From assembly GCA_016209155.1 (NCBI GenBank), contig JACQWU010000121.1:1-10390 (forward strand): DNA of 10,390 nt, written 5' to 3'. Every line of letters begins with the position of its first letter. The stretch's first letter is position 1. Below, in pieces: positions 2,331 through 10,390 of this stretch. Source of the DNA: Candidatus Desantisiibacteriota bacterium. Lineage in GTDB: Bacteria; JACRDZ01. The notes beneath the pieces are model-generated. The model saw only the letters and a program-made list of their open reading frames with translations. It was not told where the DNA came from and did not search any database. The translations under genes were made by a program, and so were the position numbers.

Positions 2331-3881
2331 TTAATTTTTATTCTCTTTAGAACTTATTTTTCTGAAAAGATTTTCAGCCATATGTTCGGTAAAAATATGA
2401 TAATTCATAACTTCATCACAGAATCTTTTTAAAGTTGCGGGTTCCTGCGATTTTGGCCCAATCAAAACACCATAAGTCCGGAAATTTTTTTTCCTTTTAA
2501 AGTCATAATATGTTTTTAAAAAACTTTCACTTATATTGCAGATATCATCAGTTATAAAAACTATATCCGCATCCTTGTAAACGGTTTCTTTTTCTAAAAA
2601 AGCAAGCGCAGTATTAATAGGTGTTTCAAAGTCTGTCCCGCCGCCAATAAATCCCACAATAAATTCAATAAGCCCTGCGGAAAAGTTCAAAACATCCTTT
2701 TTCTTATCCGGAATTTCTATTTCAATTTCATTTTTTTTAAACGCAAAACTTTTTACACGTCCCTTCTGCCCGAAAATAATCGCAATAAAGTTTCTATCAT
2801 CAACTCTGGCTATTTCAAGAAGTCCGAGTGCAACAGCTTTAGACATTATTTCCGGTTTACCGGACATTGAACCGCTTGTATCAATACATGCAATAATACT
2901 TCCATGACTTTCGGGCTCTTTCCCTTTCAGCTCATATTGAATCAATTTTTTATATGCTAAACGCTGATAAAAATCATACTGGAAGCTGGGGTGTGACAAA
3001 TAAGTAATTTCAAGCGGATGCATTTTCATCAGATCATCACCCATTACTATATTATATATTTCATATGGCATTTCATGAATTTTGGAATACCTTACGGTAA
3101 GAGACATCTGCCTGAGGCGGCCTATTATTTCAGCAAATTCTTTTAAACGGGGATTATTTTTTAATTGCACAGTCAATTTCATTTTTTCTTCATAGCTTAA
3201 TTCTTCTATTCCCTGTTCAATATCCCATCCCTGGCATATTTCCACGACATTTTTCACATTATCTATCTCCTGTAATACTTCTTTTGAGCTAACAAGAGTA
3301 ACCGAAGACATTTTCTTTTTCAATTTACCTATATACTTATCTTTTTTATTATTTTTGTCTTTATTCAATACAGGTGAAAAAAACCGGCTTAAAAAAGAAC
3401 CCTTTTTCTTTTCCTTATTATTTTTATCCACTTCTTCTTCATCATTTAAACTGATAATATCCTTAAGATATTTTTTAGTGAATTTTCGTATCCTTTTTTT
3501 CCATCTTAATCTGGATAAATAACTGATCAACCTTTCTGCAAACATTTCTGTTGCCCATATTGAAGTAATACTGCTGAAACAGGTTTTATTTCTTATCTCG
3601 ATATAGGAATCACTTAATAAAAATCCTTCAAGAATGGTCATGTTAATTAAATATTGGGGATCAATTTCTTCACCTTGTTTAAGTTCAGGATGTCCTTCAT
3701 AGAGACTGCAAAAAATATCACATAAAAGATAGGAGAAAGTCGGCAAAAAGGTATTACCTTTTTTTTCTTTTTCAACTAATGTTTTTGATGATTGATATAA
3801 TTGATAATATTTTTTGCGTATTGATGAGGTGGAATTGAGAACATAAACTGATTTATTTTTTGAAGAATTTAATTTTGTCAT
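2331..3881 (-). CDS. viaA: ViaA-like VWA-domain protein (partner of RavA/MoxR ATPase)
   Basis: The C-terminal half is a von Willebrand A domain (about 327-505) with an intact MIDAS metal site: D334-T-S336-G-S338, T416 within GGGTDFETP, and D445-D446 in VFITDD. The segment before it (about 215-320), including GWDIEQG and LKEFAEIIGRLRQ, resembles the ViaA N-terminal region. Residues 142-195 are a Lys/Asn/Glu-rich low-complexity linker not expected in E. coli ViaA. At 516 aa it is slightly longer than ViaA, which is about 480. In E. coli ViaA stimulates the RavA ATPase, and the pair acts at the inner membrane on respiratory complexes; the same role here is inferred. It is the last gene of the minus-strand operon, 35 bases after the RavA lid/C-terminal frame. 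Its Shine-Dalgarno (AAGGA, 3884-3888) is only two bases from the ATG. No terminator separates it from the convergent SYLF gene. Confidence 0.8.
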   Translation of the reverse strand: MTKLNSSKNKSVYVLNSTSSIRKKYYQLYQSSKTLVEKEKKGNTFLPTFSYLLCDIFCSLYEGHPELKQGEEIDPQYLINMTILEGFLLSDSYIEIRNKTCFSSITSIWATEMFAERLISYLSRLRWKKRIRKFTKKYLKDIISLNDEEEVDKNNKEKKKGSFLSRFFSPVLNKDKNNKKDKYIGKLKKKMSSVTLVSSKEVLQEIDNVKNVVEICQGWDIEQGIEELSYEEKMKLTVQLKNNPRLKEFAEIIGRLRQMSLTVRYSKIHEMPYEIYNIVMGDDLMKMHPLEITYLSHPSFQYDFYQRLAYKKLIQYELKGKEPESHGSIIACIDTSGSMSGKPEIMSKAVALGLLEIARVDDRNFIAIIFGQKGRVKSFAFKKNEIEIEIPDKKKDVLNFSAGLIEFIVGFIGGGTDFETPINTALAFLEKETVYKDADIVFITDDICNISESFLKTYYDFKRKKNFRTYGVLIGPKSQEPATLKRFCDEVMNYHIFTEHMAENLFRKISSKENKN

Positions 3882-3916: not shown

Positions 3917-4507
3917 CTAAAAGAGTTTTTCACCCCAGAACTGACGAAAAGCAGCCACATTTTGTTTTGACAGTAATTTTTGATGCATACTTTCCGTTTG
4001 CTGGATATAATTTTCTATTACGGCTTTCCCTGATTCAAGCGCGCATGATTTCATTAAAGCTTTGAGCTCTTTCATCATAGATATCATTTGTTGTTCAATT
4101 TCCCTTACCTGACTTGATAATTGTTCAAATTCCTTACGTTCTTTTTCACGGGTCATATTTTTCTGAGATGCCATATCTATTGCCTGAACAGCATCCTGAT
4201 ATAATTTCTGCAGCTGATGGTATAACTCTGTGACCTGAACAACTTCTTTGTTCCCGATACATTTATAAACAACTTTTTGAATATTTTCGCGTTCTATCCT
4301 GTCTCTTGTCTGCCAGTATATATGTTCCAAAATAGAAAGGTCTTCAATCCGAACTTCTCCGGTATGATGATTCAAATATGAAAATGCTTTTAAAACTTTT
4401 ATGGATTCTTTATAACGCCTGTCAGAAGGTTGAATATTATAATGTATTTTAAGATCTGATCTTATATTATTGATTAATTTATATATATTATTTGGAATTT
4501 TTACCAT
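3917..4507 (-). CDS. ravA: RavA-like ATPase, separated lid and C-terminal part
   Basis: Residues 1-66 match the part of RavA that follows the AAA+ core: VKIPNNIYKLI, then SDRRYKESIKVLKA (28-41), where the sensor-2/lid arginines lie, then the EVRIEDLSILEHIYW helix pair. Residues about 93-185 are rich in Gln/Glu/Lys/Met and look like a coiled coil. The reading frame is open upstream of this ATG, back to 4585, and encodes LSEITLDELYILQNEVG, which also matches the RavA linker end. The natural start is therefore probably in the preceding gene. The ATG at 4507 has only a poor AGGG two bases away. The C-terminal half is shorter and different from E. coli RavA, which ends in LARA and helical domains. 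Read with the 4540-5115 frame, this is one ATPase in two pieces. Whether it is made as a separate protein is unknown. Confidence 0.72.
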   Translation of the reverse strand: MVKIPNNIYKLINNIRSDLKIHYNIQPSDRRYKESIKVLKAFSYLNHHTGEVRIEDLSILEHIYWQTRDRIERENIQKVVYKCIGNKEVVQVTELYHQLQKLYQDAVQAIDMASQKNMTREKERKEFEQLSSQVREIEQQMISMMKELKALMKSCALESGKAVIENYIQQTESMHQKLLSKQNVAAFRQFWGEKLF

Positions 4508-4539
4508 CCCTACTTCATTTTGGAGAATATAAAGTTCAT

Positions 4540-5115
4540 CTAAAGTAATTTCAGATAATCTATTATATAACGCAATAGAAAACGGTCATTTAAAGCCATA
4601 AGTTCTTCCTGTTCCTTCCCCGGAAGTTCATTGCTGGCTCCAATCATTGTAATAAGTGGAGAATCTAATTCTTCACCAGGATTAATGGTGCATTTACGTT
4701 CATTGATCAGTCTTAAAAGAGCATTAAGCGTAACCGCACTGCATTTAAATATTTCATCAAGGAAGGCTATGTGGGACTGCGGTAATTTTTTTTCAGAGCG
4801 ATTAATAAACTTTATTAATTTCCCCTGCTGCTGCATTTCTTCTTCTACCATAACTTCGCTTACCAGAAGATCTTTATCAGTGGTAAATTTAGTTAAAAGG
4901 TGAAAAAAATATTTTATTCCTGCAATGCTTTTGCATAATGTTTCGGCTAAATTGGTTTTAGCTGTACCGGGCGGACCTATCAATAGAATATGATGACGGG
5001 ATAAAAGAGCGGTCAAGGCGCCGTCTACAACTTCTTCCCTTTCTTTAAAATATTCTTTTAATTCTGATCGAAGCTTTTGAAACCGTTCGTAGATACTTAT
5101 ATCTATTAAACTCAT
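4540..5115 (-). CDS. ravA: RavA-like MoxR AAA+ ATPase, core domain only (gene split)
   Basis: MoxR-class AAA+ core with Walker A GPPGTAKT (47-54), Walker B IAFLDE (116-121), sensor-1 Asn in ASNELP (N162), and an arginine-finger segment DRFLLR (177-182). The leading ERFQKLRSELKEYFKERE and the ALLSRHHILLIGPPG layout resemble RavA more than classical MoxR. RavA in E. coli is about 500 aa; this frame stops at 191 aa with TAG (4540-4542) right after DRFLLRYIIDYL. The lid continues in another frame (open 4585 to 3917), so the two frames overlap by 46 bases. The start is backed by AGAGG (5121-5125) five bases upstream. It follows the parvulin gene by 27 bases and so is almost surely in the same operon. 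The gene is either a recent pseudogene, a sequence error, or a natural two-piece ATPase. Confidence 0.8.
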   Translation of the reverse strand: MSLIDISIYERFQKLRSELKEYFKEREEVVDGALTALLSRHHILLIGPPGTAKTNLAETLCKSIAGIKYFFHLLTKFTTDKDLLVSEVMVEEEMQQQGKLIKFINRSEKKLPQSHIAFLDEIFKCSAVTLNALLRLINERKCTINPGEELDSPLITMIGASNELPGKEQEELMALNDRFLLRYIIDYLKLL

Positions 5116-5142: not shown

Positions 5143-6600
5143 TTAACCGGCGGCTTTTTGAGATTTTTTATCAATATTAATCAGGATTTCAATTTTCGCA
5201 CTGTTTTTCAACTGCTCATAAAAACTTGTGATTATTTTATTTTGTTTTTCATCCTTTAATGTCTCTTTAAGACGATCGTAATCTTCCTTCAATTTATTTT
5301 TATCAACCGGCGGTTTGGCAATAATCTTAATTACATATAATCCACGGGCTGATTGAAGCGGTTCGCTTATTTCCGCTACTTTTAATTCAAAAGCTTTTGC
5401 AGACATATCTTTTTCATACCCTATTCCGGGTATTGAAACATTCCGGGTAAATACTCCTGTAGTATTAAATTCCAATCCCGCTTTTTTAGCTTCTTTTTCA
5501 AATCCGTTAATTTTTGCTTTTGCAGCAAACTCACCGGCTTTATTTTTTGCAAGTTCTTTTTCCCTGGCAGTTACAATTTTACTTCGAATCTGAATTTCCA
5601 CTTCATTAAACGATTTCAGATATTCTTCCTTGATGGATTCAAGTTTAATTATGTGATAACCGAATGATGTAGATATAGGAGGACTTACTTCACCTTCTTT
5701 TAGTTTAATAAGCGCATCCTCGAAATTTTTATCCATTGTGCCGAGAGTAAAATAACCGAGATCCCCGCCGTTTGTTTTGGTCGCTGTGTCTTCTGAATGT
5801 TCTAAAGCAAGCTTTAAAAAATTAGTTCCTTTTTTGACTTCCTTATAAATATTTTCACATTTTTCACGGGCTTTTTGTTTATCCGCATCACTGCCTTGCT
5901 GATTTATTTTTACAAGTATATGCCGCGCTTTGTATTGTTTTTTAGACATAAATTCCTGTTTATGTTCATCATAATATTTTTTAGGATCTTTTTTTTCTAC
6001 AAATGCATCCGGACTAAAATGTACATAAGAAATATTCACATTTTCATTTTTCTGCATGAAAAAATCATATACTTCATCACTTGCAACCTTTACACTGTCT
6101 TTTATTATCCTCTCCAGTTTTTCTACATACAGGTCTTTACGTATATTTTCCTCAATTGTTATCCAGTCTGCACGTGAATTCTTTACAGCACTGTTCCATT
6201 TACGCGGATCAAATTGTCCTTCAGTTTGAAATACAGGATAATTTTTAACTTTTTCTATTATTTCTTCATCCCTGACATTAATATCCATTTCTTTAGCTTT
6301 TTGTACAAGAAGAGTATCACGTATTAACTGATTTATTGACATTTCTTCAATTGGAAAAAGCTTTCGAGCCATTTCGTAATTATCATTATAAAACTGACGG
6401 TAAAAATCCGCATAGCGGTTGTAATAGTTATAGTACTGGGACATAGGAATTTCTTCACCATTAATAATTACCGCTGCACCGGTTTCAGATTTTTTACCCG
6501 TGAAAGAACTCATCCCGAATAAAATGATTGTTCCTATCATAAAAGCCAGTACCAAAATCCATATAATTGTTTTCATATTATATCTTAAAGTTTTTAACAT
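5143..6600 (-). CDS. ppiD: PpiD/SurA-like membrane-anchored peptidyl-prolyl isomerase
   Basis: Residues 1-30 form a single N-terminal membrane anchor (MLKTLRYNMK then a hydrophobic stretch to LFGM), as in PpiD, which opens with a short basic cytoplasmic tail. Residues about 42-190 are the SurA/PpiD-type helical chaperone region (VIINGEEIPMSQYYNYY, then a QLIRDTLLVQKA helix). A parvulin domain at about 222-322 shows KQYKARHILVKI, NGGDLGYFTLGTM, FEDALIKLKEGEVS and FGYHIIKLE. A second, degenerate parvulin-like segment may lie at about 365-430. At 485 aa it is shorter than E. coli PpiD (about 620). The role is folding of exported proteins at the outer face of the inner membrane. AAGGAG (6609-6614) is eight bases before the ATG. 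It is the first gene of the operon with the RavA- and ViaA-like genes. The fold is certain; the PpiD versus SurA or PrsA name is less so. Confidence 0.85.
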   Translation of the reverse strand: MLKTLRYNMKTIIWILVLAFMIGTIILFGMSSFTGKKSETGAAVIINGEEIPMSQYYNYYNRYADFYRQFYNDNYEMARKLFPIEEMSINQLIRDTLLVQKAKEMDINVRDEEIIEKVKNYPVFQTEGQFDPRKWNSAVKNSRADWITIEENIRKDLYVEKLERIIKDSVKVASDEVYDFFMQKNENVNISYVHFSPDAFVEKKDPKKYYDEHKQEFMSKKQYKARHILVKINQQGSDADKQKAREKCENIYKEVKKGTNFLKLALEHSEDTATKTNGGDLGYFTLGTMDKNFEDALIKLKEGEVSPPISTSFGYHIIKLESIKEEYLKSFNEVEIQIRSKIVTAREKELAKNKAGEFAAKAKINGFEKEAKKAGLEFNTTGVFTRNVSIPGIGYEKDMSAKAFELKVAEISEPLQSARGLYVIKIIAKPPVDKNKLKEDYDRLKETLKDEKQNKIITSFYEQLKNSAKIEILINIDKKSQKAAG

Positions 6601-8972: not shown

Positions 8973-9012
8973 ATAATTGTAGAAACGCAAAATCTTGCGT
9001 TTCTACAATTAT
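8973..9012. repeat. Perfect palindromic repeat element (18-bp stem, AATC loop)
   Basis: ATAATTGTAGAAACGCAA (8973-8990) pairs perfectly with 8995-9012 across a four-base loop. The core GTAGAAACGCAA...TTGCGTTTCTAC resembles GTAGAGACG/CGTCTCTAC palindromic repeats that I recall as dispersed in many bacterial genomes; this is from memory. There is no real T tract on the plus strand, so it is a poor terminator for plus-strand transcripts. Its last two bases are the A and T of the EamA start codon at 9011, and no Shine-Dalgarno lies in front of that codon. Confidence 0.85.
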
Positions 9013-9649
9013 GATTAAATTACATTTCATTTATGGAATTTTAGGCGGCTTAGCTGCTCTTTTGTCAGCCGCAGCATGGGCGTTTGGTTCTATTTTATTC
9101 CAGAAGCTGGGAGATGAGGTTTCTCCAACCGGTATGAATCTCGGGAAAGGTATAATCGGGATTTTATATCTGGGGATAGCCCTTTTGCTGATTGAGGTAG
9201 AACCTGTTGATTACCACACATTTATTTTTATTGGCATTAGCGGTTTATTGGGAATTGCTTTAGGTGATACATTTTTTTTTAAAGCTTTGATGGATTTAGG
9301 AGCAAAAACAACACTGCTGCTCGGAACACTTGGGCCTGTATTTACAGTTGTTTTATCGGTTATATTTCTTCATGAAAAACCGTCTATATCCGGATGGCTT
9401 GGAATTTCACTTACTGTCGGGGGAGTAACATGGGTGATGAGTAAAAATTCTCCCGTAGAAAGAATGAAAAAAAATTGGACTTCCGGTATCAAATATTCAT
9501 TATTATCTTCTTTATGCATTTCAATAGGAATAATTTTTGCCAAAGCGGGGATATCATCAATTTCAGCAATGCAGGCGGCATTAATCCGCTTCCTATTTAG
9601 TGTTATAGGACTTGCTATATATGGGATGGCAAATCATCAGCTTAGCTAA
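9011..9649 (+). CDS. EamA/DMT-family transporter, 3'-truncated, probably decayed
   Basis: An inner-membrane drug/metabolite transporter of the EamA type. Membrane segments are seen at about 8-30, 46-62, 70-92, 99-119, 126-143, 158-178 and 184-205. The first EamA repeat is complete and ends in the typical LHEKPSISGWLGISLTVGGVT-like stretch (120-140). The second repeat stops after two helices, so about 80-90 residues and three helices of the normal ten-helix form are missing. The DNA after TAA (9647-9649) shows no continuation in any plus frame. The only in-frame ATG lies inside a palindromic hairpin and has no Shine-Dalgarno; the upstream frame is closed by TAA at 8969-8971. A break at both ends suggests a pseudogene, although the coding part has no internal stop. 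Its former substrate cannot be told. Confidence 0.75.
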   Translation: MIKLHFIYGILGGLAALLSAAAWAFGSILFQKLGDEVSPTGMNLGKGIIGILYLGIALLLIEVEPVDYHTFIFIGISGLLGIALGDTFFFKALMDLGAKTTLLLGTLGPVFTVVLSVIFLHEKPSISGWLGISLTVGGVTWVMSKNSPVERMKKNWTSGIKYSLLSSLCISIGIIFAKAGISSISAMQAALIRFLFSVIGLAIYGMANHQLS

Positions 9650-9853: not shown

Positions 9854-10390
9854 ATGATTAACAGCGGTGATACAGCATTTATTTTAGCTGCAACAGGTTT
9901 AGTTATGTTAATGACACCCGGGCTTGCTTTTTTTTACGGTGGAATGGTAAGGCGTAAAAATGTTTTGGGAATTTTGATGCAATGTTTTACTATTATGTGC
10001 ATAATAACTATTCAGTGGGTACTTATCGGATATAGTTTCTCTTTTGCCCCGGTAACAGGTTTTATCGGTGACCTTCGGTGGTTTGGTTTAAATGGAGTGG
10101 GACTGGAACCTTATACAGATTATGCTGCAACTATTCCTCATCAGGCTTTTATGATTTATCAGGCAATGTTTGCTGTAATTACCACTGCTTTAATTCTTGG
10201 CGCATTTGCAGAAAGAATAAAATTTTCTTCATTTATAATTTTTTCATTATTATGGACAACTTTTGTTTATGACCCGATATGTCACTGGACATGGGCAATC
10301 GGCGGATGGATCAGAGATTTAGGTGCTCTTGATTTTGCCGGAGGAACAGTAGTACATATAAGTGCAGGTGCAGCAGCTATTATGTGCGCG
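9854..10390 (+). CDS. amt: Ammonium transporter Amt, N-terminal part
   Basis: The first 179 codons of an Amt/MEP/Rh family channel run off the right edge. Family signatures are TGLVMLMTPGLAFFYGGMVR (14-33), IPHQAFMIYQAMFAVIT (94-110) with a periplasmic-gate Phe region, GAFAER (116-121), HWTW (144-147), and LDFAGGTVVHISAG (159-172). D160 and H168 match the conserved Asp and pore His of E. coli AmtB. There is no long signal peptide; the N-terminus leads straight into helix 1, unlike E. coli AmtB. The protein takes up ammonium across the inner membrane and is usually controlled by the PII protein GlnK, whose gene often follows amt but is outside this window. The start is ATG at 9854 with AAGGAGA (9837-9843) upstream. 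The preceding sigma-54 promoter suggests nitrogen-dependent expression. Confidence 0.95.
   Translation, partial: MINSGDTAFILAATGLVMLMTPGLAFFYGGMVRRKNVLGILMQCFTIMCIITIQWVLIGYSFSFAPVTGFIGDLRWFGLNGVGLEPYTDYAATIPHQAFMIYQAMFAVITTALILGAFAERIKFSSFIIFSLLWTTFVYDPICHWTWAIGGWIRDLGALDFAGGTVVHISAGAAAIMCA

Follow-up and report, generated by a model that had tools for sequence, protein, structure and literature searches.

Does this locus encode a RavA-like ATPase whose AAA+ core and lid are made as separate chains, or is one gene interrupted only in the sequence as assembled? In the window, by which we mean the whole stretch of 10,390 nucleotides analysed here, the two domains lie in overlapping open reading frames upstream of a ViaA-like gene. 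The second answer is very probably right: the break is an artefact of assembly in an ordinary RavA/ViaA-like pair, and not a true biological feature. The features on which the argument turns are as follows.

4540..5115, minus strand: AAA+ core (RavA-like, bpMoxR), an ORF of 191 aa with Walker A and B, sensor 1 and arginine finger
3917..4585, minus strand, -1 frame: second part of this one gene, an AAA_lid_8 lid containing SDRR (sensor 2) and a helical C-terminal region
4540..4585, minus strand: overlap of both open frames, 46 bases, without an X_XXY_YYZ slippery heptamer
4549..4556, minus strand: approximate junction, at which 70 bases are absent that correspond to a 24-residue linker (SINNN..KPQTT) in relatives
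2331..3881, minus strand: intact ViaA-like VWA protein of 516 aa, next gene downstream (NF008230, 94.9 bits; VWA_2, 28.4 bits)

In the core ORF, Walker A is GPPGTAKT, Walker B AFLDEI, sensor 1 GASNE and the arginine finger NDRFLLR; its C-terminal end reads DRFLLRYIIDYLKLL before the stop, the last three residues (KLL) lying beyond the break. The lid frame, at -1 relative to the core frame, has 222 open codons from 4585 to 3917 (196 aa from its first ATG, at 4507) and includes QPSDRRYK. Neither half has an internal stop. A preliminary description of this DNA had placed all four core motifs in a 191-aa frame, the lid with SDRR in another frame open from 4585, and a 46-base overlap (4540-4585) between frames related by -1; we recovered the same coordinates, and every detail of the observation that could be checked proved right.

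Both halves belong to the bpMoxR/RavA-like group of MoxR AAA+ proteins, the core by its motifs and its score against Pfam bpMoxR (PF20030; 123.6 bits, cut-off 27), and the lid, in the second frame, by its sensor 2 arginine (SDRR) and its score against AAA_lid_8 (PF17868; 51.1 bits, cut-off 22.8). On the NCBIfam RavA model (NF010054) the core aligns to positions 7-179 of the profile and the lid to 206-401, with the ~26 positions between them absent. The two pieces score 87.2 and 35.5 bits and intact relatives 128-130, against an equivalog cut-off of 681, and by this measure the window gene is not RavA sensu stricto. Similarly, the best NCBIfam match of the 2331-3881 product is ViaA (NF008230), below the cut-off of 500, which makes it a ViaA homologue and not an equivalog. 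As this ViaA-like VWA gene lies right downstream, the locus is a ravA-viaA-like pair, and the gene itself is of the ordinary RavA/ViaA-like kind.

Relatives from the same phylum (G001, G002 and G003, the last being MAG STD1_102, JAQUKH010000001.1) show what the gene looks like when whole. Homologues in a single intact frame are found in G003 (420 aa; core 87% identical to the window) and G001 (424 aa; 84%), with core and lid on one polypeptide, whereas in the window they are not, a failure that we attribute to assembly. A single intact homologue spans both window pieces, at 87% and 50% identity, and the two pieces are therefore one gene and not a chance pairing. In DNA alignments to G003 and G001, one gap of 70 nt in the window re-aligns both sides; since 70 is not a multiple of three, one gene shows as two overlapping ORFs. 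The missing bases are the codons for SINNN(D/E)(D/N)SPFVSMISNEVLKPQTT, less two bases. The linker would be ~8 residues long in a fused reading of the window, against ~30 in the relatives. These values agree with the preliminary expectation of a fused linker of 5-10 residues against ~30 in E. coli RavA, which does have a linker at this place, and with a frame-breaking deletion of ~60-75 bases in preference to a base error. The alignment of close relatives proposed there as a check found linker and frame whole in both genomes. The loss of bases stands; its site, which the letters alone could not show, is most likely the assembly, for reasons given below (rpoB and tyrS are broken alike).

Identity to the relatives is 87% for the core, 66-68% for the lid domain and 51-55% for the viaA-like gene. 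Both halves are conserved in step with an intact partner and are free of stops, as would be expected of a live gene that is whole in the cell; in pairwise dN/dS comparisons, synonymous sites were saturated. In G001 the viaA-like gene has a frame break of its own, a 1-nt difference in a stretch of nine T (L033 1089-1173), which is an independent lesion, an error or slippage. A survey covered 98 genomes; among the homologues it listed, no other is split and only the window frame is short (196 aa), the others being about 290-297 aa or more. The window and the rest of the genome were also searched for a second intact copy of the gene and for the missing linker, and neither was found. A weak match on contig C269 was rejected, as it sits within unrelated genes. 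A scan of genome contigs with the window core gave no match; repeated with the intact pair, it returned the G003 record and a single distant MoxR.

The genome of the window (G000) is a draft of 352 contigs and 3.08 Mb, 79% complete, with the window on contig C200. ORFs from 1.2 Mb of G003 were compared with 528 kb of this draft and with 230 kb of G001, and other genes of the draft proved to be broken:

C85, 5185-6757 (L139): V-type ATP synthase A, frame-breaking loss of ~155 nt against G003 or G001
CapD/PseB-like gene: clean frame-breaking loss of ~134 nt against G003 or G001
MgtA-like transporter: loss of ~140 nt, found with G001 queries
RadC: clean frame-breaking loss of ~103 nt against G003 or G001
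C345, 11767-12878 (L189): tyrS (tyrosyl-tRNA synthetase), loss of ~91-94 nt
C276, 271-3964: rpoB, single copy, in two frames
C332, 9636-11893: alaS, in two frames

Contigs C20 (L053) and C3 (L170) are among those carrying the CapD/PseB-like, MgtA-like and RadC genes. The rpoB pieces cover 3694 nt against 3744, leaving the gene ~50 nt short, and it is an intact single frame of 1293-1297 aa in G001, G002 and G003. No further copy of tyrS was found in the window genome; valS is whole. One survey candidate, a gap in amtB, was rejected because it is a run of Ns and no frameshift. In the control, G003 proteins against G001, there were two 1-nt breaks only, and none of 95 genes had lost 50-155 nt. 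The gene-level excess (5/105 in the window genome vs 0/95, P = 0.06) is on its own suggestive, and a somewhat higher number of real indels is to be expected because G000 stands at a greater distance from G003 than does G001. What decides the matter is which genes are broken, not how many. The only rpoB and the only tyrS are broken in the same manner, and a cell is not viable without RpoB and TyrRS, which argues that the losses arise in assembly.

The draft also contains faulty joins of another sort. There are 15 internal N-runs in the 528 kb, several of which have identical ends of 7-18 nt on both sides; these joins were therefore given wrong gap sizes, and the ends should have been merged. 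The run of 22 Ns that closes the window at 10390 (C200:10391-10412, within amtB) has the same 13 bases, TATTATGTGCGCG, on both sides, and so the gap is spurious. A literature search for assembly errors of exactly the kind met in these genes returned nothing specific. Elsewhere in the window, an EamA-type transporter (9011-9649) lacks about its last 85 residues relative to G003 (298 aa). It is followed by an amtB-glnB pair in which glnB (C200:11211-11471, L049 822-1082) is short too, at 86 aa, and the DNA past glnB looks, by eye, like the stretch right after EamA in G003. This is either another wrong join or a real insertion that damaged both ends; two truncated genes on the same contig could mark a real rearrangement, which counts against blaming the assembly.

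Of the other explanations, the one with most to recommend it is a recent, real 70-bp deletion that inactivated the ravA-like gene in this strain. A clean gap between halves that are both still conserved is what a young lesion looks like, and RavA-ViaA is non-essential in E. coli. However, rpoB and tyrS, each the sole copy in the genome, show the same type of loss yet must work in a living cell, and the viaA-like partner is intact. We consider a young pseudogene unlikely. A natural two-subunit ATPase, with core and lid as separate chains, had been offered in the preliminary description as the alternative, and overlapping ORFs with a break between two domains would suit it. It does not survive comparison: no relative in the survey is split, the linker is absent altogether and not just divided, and the lid's first ATG (4507) comes ~40 nt after the point where conservation of the lid region begins, without a clear Shine-Dalgarno sequence at the normal distance. 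We regard separate subunits as exceedingly improbable, and it is just as hard to credit that this lineage alone has dispensed with the linker and makes core and lid as separate chains. A split two-subunit AAA+ ATPase would be notable if true, but nothing supports one.

Programmed -1 frameshifting could in principle join the two frames, given the -1 position of the lid frame and the presence of a TTTAAAT heptamer at 4594-4588. However, that heptamer precedes the -1 frame's own stop (TGA, read as F-K-stop), and slippage there would therefore terminate immediately. No other slippery heptamer occurs close to where the core ORF ends, and none was found in the usable overlap of the two frames, where a gene of this kind would carry one. 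The fused product would still be short of ~22 linker residues, and the relatives do without any frameshift; the chance that recoding explains the locus is minimal.

An assembly fault in one ordinary gene is by far the most probable reading. On this reading the window holds a gene for a RavA-like MoxR AAA+ ATPase and, after it, one for the ViaA-like VWA partner; the 70 bases for the core-lid linker have been dropped from the first in the assembled sequence. This most likely happened when short metagenomic reads were assembled or scaffolded and contigs or read blocks were wrongly joined; placing two blocks end to end without the bases between them would leave exactly such a lesion. The cell itself probably has the gene as one frame of ~420 codons. 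The fault is systematic in this draft, which loses ~50-155 bases at scattered sites, many within genes, and reads are needed before split genes, truncations or 'pseudogenes' on its contigs are taken for biology.

The closest known system is E. coli RavA, a MoxR AAA+ ATPase (PDB 3nbx, 6sza and 6q7l), with which the locus has in common the core, the lid with SDRR, an adjoining ViaA-like gene and, in its intact relatives, a core-lid linker of ~26-32 residues at the corresponding position. The profile match to 3nbx (E = 3.5e-27) runs across 292 residues and stops after the lid. The differences from E. coli RavA are that even the intact relatives score far under the NCBIfam cut-off, and that the window assembly is without the linker. 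In domain terms, the gene corresponds to bpMoxR (PF20030) with AAA_lid_8 (PF17868), both above their curated cut-offs and split across two frames in this assembly only. The RavA-like proteins of MAG STD1_102 and G001 are nearest, with cores 84-87% identical and a ViaA-like downstream neighbour likewise, but they are encoded in one intact frame that includes the 24-residue linker. They also differ in what lies upstream, which is a SurA/PpiD-like gene in the window (5143-6600) and a glycosyltransferase, heptosyltransferase-like as judged from sequence only, in G001 and G003 (L003 2068-3267, L004 2091-3095).
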